From Candidatus Gastranaerophilales bacterium (GTDB lineage: Bacteria > Cyanobacteriota > Vampirovibrionia > Gastranaerophilales > Gastranaerophilaceae), in contig CALVDX010000003.1 in the NCBI GenBank assembly GCA_944326425.1, positions 62,001 to 126,000 on the forward strand: a DNA stretch of 64,000 bases, written 5' to 3'. Positions 52,884 to 56,359 of this stretch are shown here, one piece after another; within the stretch, counting starts at the first letter, position 1, and each line of letters begins with the position of its first letter. The translations under genes were made by a program, and so were the position numbers. A model generated the notes under the pieces. That model searched no databases. It was not told the DNA's origin and saw only the letters and a list, made by a program, of their open reading frames with translations.

Positions 52884-54125
52884 TTATTCAGCGGAAATGT
52901 ATCCTCTTAAAGCAGTGTATGCCGCCACATAAGGGGAAGCAAGATAAATAAAACCTTTTGTGTTTCCCATTCTTCCCTGAAAGTTTCTGTTTTGTGTTGC
53001 AAGACAGACTTCGCCGTCACCTAAGATACCGGCGTGAACGCCTACGCACGGTCCGCATCCGGGAGCCATAATTGCGGCGTTAGCCTCTACAAAAATATCT
53101 ATTAAGCCTTCTTTTAGGGCCTGCTTAAAGACATCTTTTGATGCAGGAGAGATAATCATCCTTACATCGGGGTGAACCGTTTTGCCTTTCAATATTTCTG
53201 CGGCAACTCTCAAATCTTCGATTCTTCCGTTTGTACAGGTGCCTAAGAATACCTGATTAACTTTCACATCTTTTAATTCTTCAACCGGCTTTGTATTGTC
53301 TACCGTATGCGGGCAGGAAACCGTGTGAGGAACGGAACCTGCGTCAATAACGATTATTCTTTCGTAATTGGCGTCGGGGTCGGGGAGAATTTGTTTAAAC
53401 TTGTCCTCCCTTCCTCTTTGTTTTAAAAACTCTTTTGTCTTGTCGTCTGCGACAAATAAACCGCATTTTGCGCCGGCTTCAACCGCCATGTTTGCAAGCG
53501 TGAACCTTTCTGACATTGACATCTTGTTTATTGTATCGCCGCAAAATTCAAGCGCTTTGTAGGTTGCACCGTCAGCACCAATCATACCGATAAGGTGGAG
53601 CATCAAATCTTTTGAACAGACGCCGGGCTTGAATGTTCCGTTTACAACGATTTTGAAGGTTGCAGGGACTTTTAACCAGGTTTTACCCAGAGCCATTGCT
53701 ACTGCAATATCGGTAGAGCCCATACCTGTTGCAAAAGCGCCCAGCGCGCCGGATGTACATGTGTGTGAATCCGCGCCTACAAGGACCTCACCGGGGTTAA
53801 CGTAGGTTTCAATAAGTCTCTGGTGGCAAACTCCCGAACCGACATCCGAGAGGACAGCGCCGTACTCTTTAGAAAATTCTCTTAGTACCATGTGCGTGTT
53901 AGATAGTTCTTTGCGCGGGCTCGGGGATGCGTGATCTATAAAAAGAATTGTCCGCTCGGGGTTGTTGAGTTTTTGTTTGCCTAGCTTTTTAAACTCCGCA
54001 ACCGTCAGAGGACCTGTTCCGTCCTGAACTGCGGCTACATCAACCTTTGATATAACGAGTTCTCCCGCCTTAACATCTTTTCCCGCGTGGTTTGAAATAA
54101 TTTTTTCTACAAGTGTCTGCCCCAT
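52884..54125 (-). CDS. leuC: 3-isopropylmalate dehydratase large subunit
   Basis: Isomerises 2- and 3-isopropylmalate in leucine synthesis; needs the small subunit LeuD, not seen here. The 4Fe-4S ligands are C287-like FLGTCTNGR and CGPC in APGCGPCVGVH; ADSHTCTSGALGAFATGMGS is the substrate-site signature. 413 residues places it in the shorter LeuC class that also includes homoaconitase and methanogen-type enzymes, so the exact substrate is less certain. AAAGGGGA precedes the ATG. Confidence 0.88.
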   Translation of the reverse strand: MGQTLVEKIISNHAGKDVKAGELVISKVDVAAVQDGTGPLTVAEFKKLGKQKLNNPERTILFIDHASPSPRKELSNTHMVLREFSKEYGAVLSDVGSGVCHQRLIETYVNPGEVLVGADSHTCTSGALGAFATGMGSTDIAVAMALGKTWLKVPATFKIVVNGTFKPGVCSKDLMLHLIGMIGADGATYKALEFCGDTINKMSMSERFTLANMAVEAGAKCGLFVADDKTKEFLKQRGREDKFKQILPDPDANYERIIVIDAGSVPHTVSCPHTVDNTKPVEELKDVKVNQVFLGTCTNGRIEDLRVAAEILKGKTVHPDVRMIISPASKDVFKQALKEGLIDIFVEANAAIMAPGCGPCVGVHAGILGDGEVCLATQNRNFQGRMGNTKGFIYLASPYVAAYTALRGYISAE

Positions 54126-54204
54126 AATTTCCCCTTTTTTTTATTTTAGATTATAACACAAAGTACAATTTGCGGAGAGTTATTCAATATAGCCAATGAC
54201 TAAA

Positions 54205-54220
54205 TGTAACAGAATGTTAA
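54205..54220 (+). promoter_or_regulatory. variant of the TGTAA direct-repeat motif
   Basis: TGTAACAGAATGTTAA, half-sites 10 bp apart, in the sense of the gene at 54418. It lies about 57 bases before the first TATAAT of the pentanucleotide array. Confidence 0.35.
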
Positions 54221-54259
54221 GACGAATTTCAAGAAGGCGGAAACGCATCAGCCGCGCGG

Positions 54260-54336
54260 AATATAATATAATATAATATAATATAATATAATATAATATA
54301 ATATAATATAATATAATATAATATAATATAATATAA
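54260..54336. repeat. pentanucleotide tandem repeat (AATAT), about 15 copies
   Basis: 77 bases of unbroken (ATATA/ATAAT)n between leuC and the gene at 54418, flanked by GC-rich CCGCGCGG and CTCGCGC. On the plus strand each unit creates a TATAAT, so the array is a row of overlapping -10 boxes. A five-base unit does not preserve frame; it is noncoding. Confidence 0.95.
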
Positions 54337-54349
54337 CTCGCGCAATTAA

Positions 54350-54418
54350 TTGTAATTCCCGGTTTTAATATAAATATAAGATTGTTAAGTAGGAAATAAA
54401 ATGAAAGGGGAATTACAA
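54350..54418 (+). promoter_or_regulatory. hairpin that can sequester the ribosome site of the 54418 gene
   Basis: TTGTAATTCCC (54350-54360) is perfectly complementary to GGGAATTACAA (54408-54418), which contains the GGGGA ribosome site and the A of the ATG. Transcripts starting just after the last TATAAT would begin with the first arm. Confidence 0.6.
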
Positions 54419-54421
54419 TGA
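54401..54421 (+). CDS. six-codon leader ORF
   Basis: ATG AAA GGG GAA TTA CAA TGA (MKGELQ), with AGGA 6 bases upstream. Its stop overlaps the next start as ATGA. Translating it would open the hairpin just described. Too short for any conservation argument. Confidence 0.4.
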   Translation: MKGELQ

Positions 54422-54816
54422 CAAGATTTACACCATTAATTAAATTGGCAAAACAAGCGCCGTCGTTTTTGAATAACACGGCAAAAACCGCACAGAAAAA
54501 ATTTACGCCGACTGCAAATTTGATTAACCAAAGAGTGCTGACAACTGCACCGGATGGTTATAAAATCAGCGCGGCCTTTAAAGACTTATCAGATACTTTT
54601 ATCAAACATACTCCTGATGTATCAGGTATTACTAATTCAATAAAACTGGCACCGTCGTTTTTGAATAGTGCGGCAAAAACTGTAAAGGGCAAATTTACGC
54701 CAACTGCAAATTTGATTAATGAAAAAATACTGACAACTGAACCGTATGGTCATAAAATCAGCGCGTCTTTTAAAGAATTGATGGCAAATATGAATAAAAT
54801 GATAAAAGATATTTAA
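54418..54816 (+). CDS. lineage-specific protein with two tandem repeats
   Basis: 132 residues in two copies of about 65-70: the first contains APSFLNNTAKTAQKKFTPTA and LTTAPDGYKISAAFKDL, the second APSFLNSAAKTVKGKFTPTA and LTTEPYGHKISASFKEL. No membrane segment. The DNA copies differ, so the duplication is not recent. GGGGA is 6 bases from the ATG. Probably in an operon with 54891. Function unknown. Confidence 0.7.
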   Translation: MTRFTPLIKLAKQAPSFLNNTAKTAQKKFTPTANLINQRVLTTAPDGYKISAAFKDLSDTFIKHTPDVSGITNSIKLAPSFLNSAAKTVKGKFTPTANLINEKILTTEPYGHKISASFKELMANMNKMIKDI

Positions 54817-54890: not shown

Positions 54891-56027
54891 ATGACACATA
54901 TTCAGCCAATAGCAAGCAATACTGCAGCGCCAACAATAAAACCGGTATTTACATCAGCGCCGGATAATAAACCCGCGGCGGATATTCAGGAAAAGAAAAC
55001 AAGTAATACCGTAAAAGCGGTTATCGGAACGGCAGGCGCTCTTGCGATTGCGGCAACTATAATCGGCGGAATACGCTATAAAAAGGGAAAAGACATTGCT
55101 AAAGAAGTTAAAGAACTTATGAAAACCTGCAAGATCGGATACTCTGCCCAGCATGTAAAAAATAACTATAATAATAATGAACAAATAGCAAAACGGCTTG
55201 AAGAGATAAGCAAATTAAAACCCAAAGAACAGTTAAGCGCGTTAAAGCAGCTGGAAACAGATATGAGTAATCTAAACCTGCTTGCCTACTGGCGGCAAAT
55301 GGACGGCAAGGGTGTCAGCAAAGTGATGGAAACGGTGCCGGCAGAGGTAAAAAAAGCACTGGATGATAATGATATTCTAAAAGCAGCGGAATTATACAGA
55401 CAGCTTGGAGTAAATCTGCCTAAAGGACGGGTTCTCTCTAATAATGGTGCGACTGTTGCGGAAACAATAGAAAATACCTTCGGCAAAGGGTCAAAAATTA
55501 AACCGCATACCTATGATAAAGCGCAGGAATATGATGTAATCACCGTGTATAGAAATCAAGGCGGATACAAGGAGGGTTATGTAAATTCTAAAAATGAAGT
55601 TATCTCCGGTTCTAACGGGGTTATGCTTAAAGATGATGATATCTTATGCCGCAGTTACATGCATGCGGACACAATTAAAGCAGTAGGCGGAAATAAGAAG
55701 GATTTTGCGGTTTTAGAAGGAACTGTCCACGGTTCTAACAGGCGGCAGGTGCAGCTGTATATTAATGGACCTGAAAGAGATACTGCCGGTCGCGCTATTC
55801 CTTATAAAATCAATATATTGTCTCCGGACGGCAATCTGACTCCCGTACAAAAGGATTTGTTAGAACTTGCCAAAAACCCGGAAAAATTTGATCGCAGAAT
55901 TTTTGACAGAATACTGGAAGGTCCTGAAACAGTGCAGGAAATGATAGACGGGGTTACGCACGTAAATACTTATAAGTATCTTAATTATGATTTATTACTC
56001 TCTGCTATCCAATCAATGGTGAAGTAA
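54891..56027 (+). CDS. lineage-specific protein with one membrane segment and a soluble domain
   Basis: 378 residues: a Pro/Thr/Ala-rich N-terminus (1-42), hydrophobic Gly/Ala segment AVIGTAGALAIAATIIGGI at about 44-63, basic residues, a helical region (75-160) and a mixed alpha/beta domain (180-378) with VITVYRNQGGYKEGYV and VLEGTVHGSNRRQVQLYING. Orientation is probably N-out or N-in with the large domain on one side; unknown. AAGGAG precedes the ATG. Function unknown. Confidence 0.72.
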   Translation: MTHIQPIASNTAAPTIKPVFTSAPDNKPAADIQEKKTSNTVKAVIGTAGALAIAATIIGGIRYKKGKDIAKEVKELMKTCKIGYSAQHVKNNYNNNEQIAKRLEEISKLKPKEQLSALKQLETDMSNLNLLAYWRQMDGKGVSKVMETVPAEVKKALDDNDILKAAELYRQLGVNLPKGRVLSNNGATVAETIENTFGKGSKIKPHTYDKAQEYDVITVYRNQGGYKEGYVNSKNEVISGSNGVMLKDDDILCRSYMHADTIKAVGGNKKDFAVLEGTVHGSNRRQVQLYINGPERDTAGRAIPYKINILSPDGNLTPVQKDLLELAKNPEKFDRRIFDRILEGPETVQEMIDGVTHVNTYKYLNYDLLLSAIQSMVK

Positions 56028-56127: not shown

Positions 56128-56142
56128 CTATTACTACTAAAA

Positions 56143-56302
56143 TGTCATCCCGAACTTGTTTCGGGATCTTACCAGCAAACAAGTATAATGCCAAGTTGGT
56201 AAGATGCTGAAGCGCGAATGAGCAGAGGCTGGAGGGCAAAATGGGAATTTTGCCCGTAATGCCGTTTAACGCGAGTGAGTAAGAACCAAGTTCAGCATGA
56301 CA
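56143..56302. mobile_element. 160-bp palindromic repeat element
   Basis: TGTCATCCCGAACTTG at 56143-56158 and its inverted copy CAAGTTCAGCATGACA at 56287-56302 (14 of 16). Inside are nested stems ATCCCGAA/TTCGGGAT and ATCTTACCA/TGGTAAGAT and a GGGCAAAAT/ATTTTGCCC stem. The GTCATCCCGAACTTG core resembles palindromic repeats widespread in bacterial intergenic DNA. No coding capacity. Confidence 0.6.
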
Positions 56303-56359
56303 AAATAATTTATTATGGACAGAGTGCTCCCGACGGGAGAGGGGAAATTTTTTTAACAA

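Follow-up and report, generated by a model that had tools for sequence, protein, structure and literature searches.

Promoter-region repeats of the hif type are an accepted mechanism of phase variation (PMC2651432). In Escherichia coli, promoters with sigma-70-dependent pauses at a 16–20 nt register have a -10-like element that lies 11 bp past the -10 (PMC7876045). In cyanobacteria, the regulator RpaB recognizes the HLR1 site, KTTACAWW-N2-KTTACAWW, and activates transcription from sites in the range -66 to -45 (PMC13421787). The presence of RpaB without photosynthesis in Melainabacteria was noted in 2013, and its role was left open (PMC3787301). Sigma-28 (FliA) promoters follow the consensus TAAAGTTT-n11-GCCGATAA (PMC2859248). 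A search of open-access full text found no publication on phase variation in Gastranaerophilales, nor one that links Melainabacteria to promoters and tandem repeats.

The locus described here lies in a 64,000-nucleotide stretch of a Gastranaerophilales genome, referred to below as the window, and its features are collected in the table. Positions 54260–54336 form a perfect AATAT repeat of 77 bp and 15.4 copies, identified with TRF and by direct reading; its TRF score is 154, and that of the next-best tandem tract in the window is 58. An earlier note described about 15 overlapping TATAAT boxes, with one -10 hexamer every 5 bases facing the gene at 54418, and placed them 3' of a regulatory motif and 5' of that gene. 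The period-5 array and its placement are as described, and TATAAT recurs every 5 bases on the + strand toward the ATG at 54418, but the exact hexamers number 14 (54262–54332) and the final unit reads TATAAC. A search of the whole genome returned this array as the only one with at least four TATAA units. None of the TATAAT boxes carries an extended -10, and the best -35 at any box matches 3/6 positions, leaving the array boxes without a usable -35. Fourteen working promoters are unlikely, because the distance to the motif grows with each later box and none of these boxes has a -35.

Features of the locus, with positions counted from the first base of the window
Feature	Positions	Strand	Basis or remark
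LeuC-like gene, divergent	52884–54125	-	Pfam aconitase family
Likely extended -10 TGTGTTATAAT of the LeuC-like gene, outside the array	54150–54155	-	Sequence
Module motif TGTAACAGAATGTTAAGACGAATTT: HLR1/RpaB-type direct repeat (one exact and one degenerate half-site) with conserved GAATTT	54205–54229	+	Recurrence, PWM, model match
GAAAC, at offset +35 as in canonical modules	54240–54244	+	Gap-free register with canonical modules
Lost -10 slot, AGCCGC versus canonical TATAAT	54250–54255	+	PWM -27 bits
(AATAT)15.4 tandem repeat containing 14 overlapping TATAAT boxes	54260–54336	+	First box 54262 = +57, the pentanucleotide-repeat slot
GCAATT, start of the second leader element of modules without a sigma-28 match	54342–54347	+	Same order in many modules
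Inverted repeat TTGTAATTCCC (54350–54360) / GGGAATTACAA (54408–54418)	54350–54418	+	Spans the ribosome-binding region; may be a chance match
TTTTAATATAAATATAAG, dyad-like stretch of the second leader element	54363–54380	+	Comparison with other GCAATT-type leaders
132-aa gene behind the array	54418–54816	+	No Pfam or NCBIfam match at cut-offs; of 59 genomes, in this one (G000) and G006 only
378-aa gene, likely next in the same transcript	54891–56027	+	No NCBIfam match

Several features of the neighborhood stand apart from the array. The 132-aa gene contains an internal duplication, with two copies of a 138-bp unit that are ~82% identical. The array was considered as a promoter of the divergent LeuC-like gene, a role that was ruled out because that gene has its own extended -10 on the - strand, off the array. 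A hairpin over the 54418 start codon was also rejected: its fold z-score is -1.18, 24/200 shuffles fold as well, and two of its pairs are lost in the sister species G006. Between the 378-aa gene and secY, positions 56136–56340 hold a dispersed repeat with ~50 partial copies in the genome, including inverted pieces such as GTCATCCCGAA..TTCGGGAT.

The motif at 54205, which the earlier note had already singled out, is real and recurrent, with ten sites in the genome at three or fewer mismatches and 0 for a reversed control. At most of the array-bearing motif sites in the genome, a TATGA repeat starts exactly 57 bp from the motif start. These sites define a promoter module with the consensus TGTAACGAAATGTAAAGATGAATTTAnAAnnGGCTGAAACCnAGnTATAATCCCCTATATGATATG, in which an HLR1-type repeat is followed by TATAAT at +45, a period-5 array at +57, and a second promoter-like element. 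Many copies have TTTAMA at +22, 17 bp ahead of the -10, which fits a -35. Counted from the first base of the -10, the canonical array begins 12 bp downstream, where transcription is predicted to start, and it is followed by a G-rich tail. A sequence-only model of the module, which includes nine bases of the TATGA repeat yet also found modules with other units, has matches in 38/59 related genomes and 15 matches in this one. These counts are lower bounds because several contigs end in or beside a module (L214, L215, L218, L221, L223, L224, and L254), as if the repeated promoter breaks assembly. Most genes behind the modules have no known family and are lineage-specific; a few carry EF-hand, RHS-like, or pilin-type N-terminal signatures.

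The module has a candidate link to RpaB. The reverse complement of the 5' part of the consensus, TTTACATTTYGTTACATT, is an exact match to the HLR1 motif, and the genome encodes RpaB (NF045944, 357.3 bits against an equivalog cut-off of 330). When transcription is assumed to start 7 nt past the -10, the canonical HLR1 lies at about -60 to -43, near the activating range. At the 54205 locus, CTTAACATTCTGTTACATTT comprises one exact HLR1 half-site and one with 3 mismatches, and a start from the first box would put HLR1 at about -71 to -54, so that part of it falls beyond the range in which activation is documented.

The 54205 locus is matched by the module model at E = 8e-6, although it was outside the training set. 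When scored with a PWM that excludes this locus, the segment from +0 to +45 reaches 34.1 bits, and the next-best position in the window reaches 0.1. Both the module motif TGTAACRAAATGTAAAGATGAATTT and the spacer that follows it are present, and the register from motif to array is free of gaps relative to canonical modules, the first TATAA unit at 54262 being 54205 + 57. The canonical -10 is absent, with AGCCGC in place of TATAAT at +45 and a score of -27 bits (PWM +45 to +57). The G-rich tail past the array is likewise missing at this locus and is replaced by CTCGCGC. Its retained motif, spacer, and repeat slot identify the locus as a derived relative of the module, with the unit TATAA rather than TATGA; it is not a full member because the -10 slot reads AGCCGC. 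This alignment overturns two suggestions of the earlier note, namely that the first box stands at the usual distance from the motif and that the array expanded from one -10 site. The first box is at +57, 12 bp beyond the canonical -10 at +45, and the array occupies the repeat slot of a conserved module, which rules it out as an expanded canonical -10.

The repeat slot is a regular part of the module across the family. In a survey for which ~60 further modules were fetched, with copy numbers counted only as far as +110, a period-5 tandem repeat of at least three copies occurs between +50 and +110 in 61/84 modules. It is also found in 20/30 modules located by the motif alone, against 0/89 and 1/83 in upstream and downstream control windows. 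Periods of 3, 4, 6, 7, and 8 each appear in the slot in 0–2 modules. The unit drifts while the period is kept: the seven types are TATGA, TAGGA, TAGCA, TATGG, TATGC, TAGAA, and TATAA (the unit at 54260), with TATGA the main unit in this genus and several others and TAGGA in many others. The first unit begins 12 bp past the start of the -10 in 68/82 arrays and 11 bp past it in 7/82. Nearly all units contain TA in the same register; units were rotated to start with TA where possible, so the TA core is partly a convention and the 12-bp register is not. With a period of 5 and a unit that starts with TA, each unit yields a minimal -10 hexamer, TAnnnT. The conserved period may stem from a function of the RNA or DNA or from promoters having been copied repeatedly; that the unit changes from genus to genus appears to argue against simple copying alone. 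The longest canonical array seen, with 13 copies of TATGA, belongs to a canonical module of the same genome (L212, G000:C17:12704); the homologous gene in G006 has ~4 units.

Downstream of the array, about a third of the modules carry what resembles a FliA promoter. The sigma-28 consensus is matched at 13 or more of 16 positions in 34/99 leaders and in 0/99 shuffled leaders. The spacer is 11 in 29 of the 34, and there are two exact matches. These 16/16 matches belong to L338 (G048:C24) and L354 (G020:C10), and G048 represents another family of the order. FliA scores above its cut-off in 35/35 genomes, and this genome encodes it. The distance from the -10 to the sigma-28-like promoter is mostly 37, 42, 47, 52, or 57 bp and otherwise 46, 51, or 56 bp; as these distances step by 5 bp, one unit corresponds to half a helical turn. 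At the 54260 locus no sigma-28-like promoter reaches 13/16 positions. Leaders without a sigma-28 match, this one included, instead carry GCAATT followed by a TTTATA..ATGTAAG-like stretch (54342–54380 here), an element that looks like a second promoter or operator.

Comparison with the sister species shows a difference in array length. At the same locus in G006, the array is 42 bp long with 8.4 units and 7 TATAAT boxes, against 77 bp and 15.4 units here (one genome per species). The flanks are 97% identical, and the length gap amounts to exactly seven units. Repeat number differs among relatives, as the earlier note had anticipated. Its further idea, that copy-number change would move the distances between the motif, the active -10, and the gene, holds for the downstream spacing only: the motif-to-first-box distance is 57 bp in both species despite the difference in copy number, and with the 5' end of the array as its anchor, slippage leaves this distance fixed. 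Homologous arrays at other loci of the same two species have 5/4, 3/4, 5/4, and 13/4 copies, and copy number is unequal in every homologous pair (protein identity 99%, 90%, 78%, and 50%), although the pair at 50% may not be orthologous.

In the five other genomes of the genus, the LeuC-like gene is present and the 132-aa gene is absent. The LeuC-like gene adjoins secY in G002, G003, and G004, indicating that the array arrived with a block of ~2.2 kb, and this block was not found in genomes of the genus other than this one and G006. The derived state is common to both sister species, which points to a loss of the -10 and a unit change that are older than their split. Across the family, ATAAT runs of at least 25 bp occur in 4/288 genomes; in two of the four (G166 and G231), the arrays lie at unrelated places.

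On balance, and with modest confidence, we favor a reading in which the array is the TATAA form of the family-wide module pentanucleotide and its first boxes now act as the -10 of the 54418 gene. In canonical modules, -10-like boxes lined up where the transcript begins would retain or re-capture sigma-70, and such capture may lead to polymerase pausing or staggered starts. The repeats are proposed to hold sigma-70 or offer staggered starts because their first unit is placed like the -10-like element of E. coli pause promoters. A gain or loss of one unit would displace the downstream element by 5 bp, equal to half a helical turn, and copy number would set the phase. At the 54260 locus, the original -10 would have decayed. 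As the units match the TATAAT consensus and the canonical -10 has been lost, the simplest account is that one or two leading boxes have taken over its role. This account has to contend with the poor -35 match of every box, the shifted and half-degenerate HLR1, and the missing canonical -10 and G-rich tail. Slippage in the array would then leave more or fewer spare boxes, alter the leader, and bring the downstream element closer or move it away. Copy number probably tunes the spacing downstream of the array, and reversible switching within a strain is possible.

The GCAATT-type downstream element could drive the 54418 gene instead. This would be the case if the upstream promoter died with its -10 and the repeat drifted and expanded unselected as a relic or spacer. 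We regard this alternative as doubtful. It accords with the decayed -10 slot, the absence of a box with a -35, the retention of the second leader element, and the existence elsewhere of long TATAA arrays without promoter orientation. However, the motif, spacer, and slot are retained in both sister species, and the units have turned into consensus TATAAT rather than random sequence. It is less likely still that this is a true phase-variable promoter, in which a single strain would switch the 54418 gene between on and off states by slippage of the array. The tract is long and perfect, the sister species differ in it by exactly seven units, related tracts vary too, and hif-type repeats offer an accepted precedent. 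Yet the distance from motif to first box is equal at 8 and 15 copies, and the array has no -35/-10 pair to bring closer together or move apart.

Among 84,980 genomes, TATAA arrays 40 bp or longer were located in 37 stretches; a gene start lies on the side that the TATAAT boxes face in 20 of these and on the opposite side in 16. Within the family, G166 and G231 have unrelated arrays, the one in G231 between convergent genes. A chance AT-rich microsatellite without any promoter link is nevertheless highly improbable here, given that the array sits at exactly +57 behind the module motif. A general promoter role for TATAA arrays in many bacteria was considered and rejected, as the 20 versus 16 counts reveal no clear orientation bias. 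Arrays of up to 43 TATAA copies, unrelated to the module, are present in Candidatus Karelsulcia muelleri SMEUTCHI (L081).

The favored reading, with the first boxes as the -10, may form part of a broader scheme that we put forward tentatively. The modules would constitute an entire RpaB regulon of a cyanobacterial lineage that lacks photosynthesis, with a hypermutable 5-bp repeat fixed at the start site. This repeat would offer sigma-70 an adjustable series of pause or start boxes and would phase a second, often FliA-type, promoter. Lineage-specific genes could then be tuned independently. Selection would act on the period and TAnnnT rather than on the unit, and the row at 54260 would be taking over as the -10. 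If true, a promoter class found throughout a bacterial family would have a simple-sequence repeat as a regular component at a fixed position, a rare case in which the repeated sequence is replaced over time but its period and location are conserved. The modules would also offer a concrete candidate set of RpaB targets in Melainabacteria.

Compared with the RpaB-controlled HLR1 promoters of cyanobacteria (PMC13421787), canonical modules share the exact KTTACAWW-N2-KTTACAWW motif in a genome that encodes RpaB. They differ in that photosynthesis genes are absent, the predicted start carries a tandem repeat, and the genes presumed to be controlled are lineage-specific; at the 54205 locus, one half-site is also degenerate. 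As in sigma-70 promoter-proximal pausing at lambda pR' and the E. coli G1d pauses (PMC7876045), TAnnnT occurs in the initial transcribed region, 11–12 bp past the -10. Canonical modules, for which a pausing role is inferred, have instead a series of these hexamers spaced 5 bp apart, in variable copy number; they retain the upstream -10, whereas the 54260 locus lacks it. A second promoter like those of sigma-28 (FliA; PMC2859248) is found in a third of modules, and the 54260 locus has a GCAATT-type element in its place. With the hifA/hifB TA tract of Haemophilus influenzae (PMC2651432), the array shares a perfect short repeat in a promoter region that differs in length between related genomes. 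Unlike the hif tract, it does not lie between a -35 and a -10 but begins at the predicted transcription start, and at the 54260 locus it alters neither the -35/-10 nor the activator/-10 spacing (-35 at most 3/6; 57 bp constant). A further difference from hifA/hifB is that the module unit drifts while its period and place are kept.
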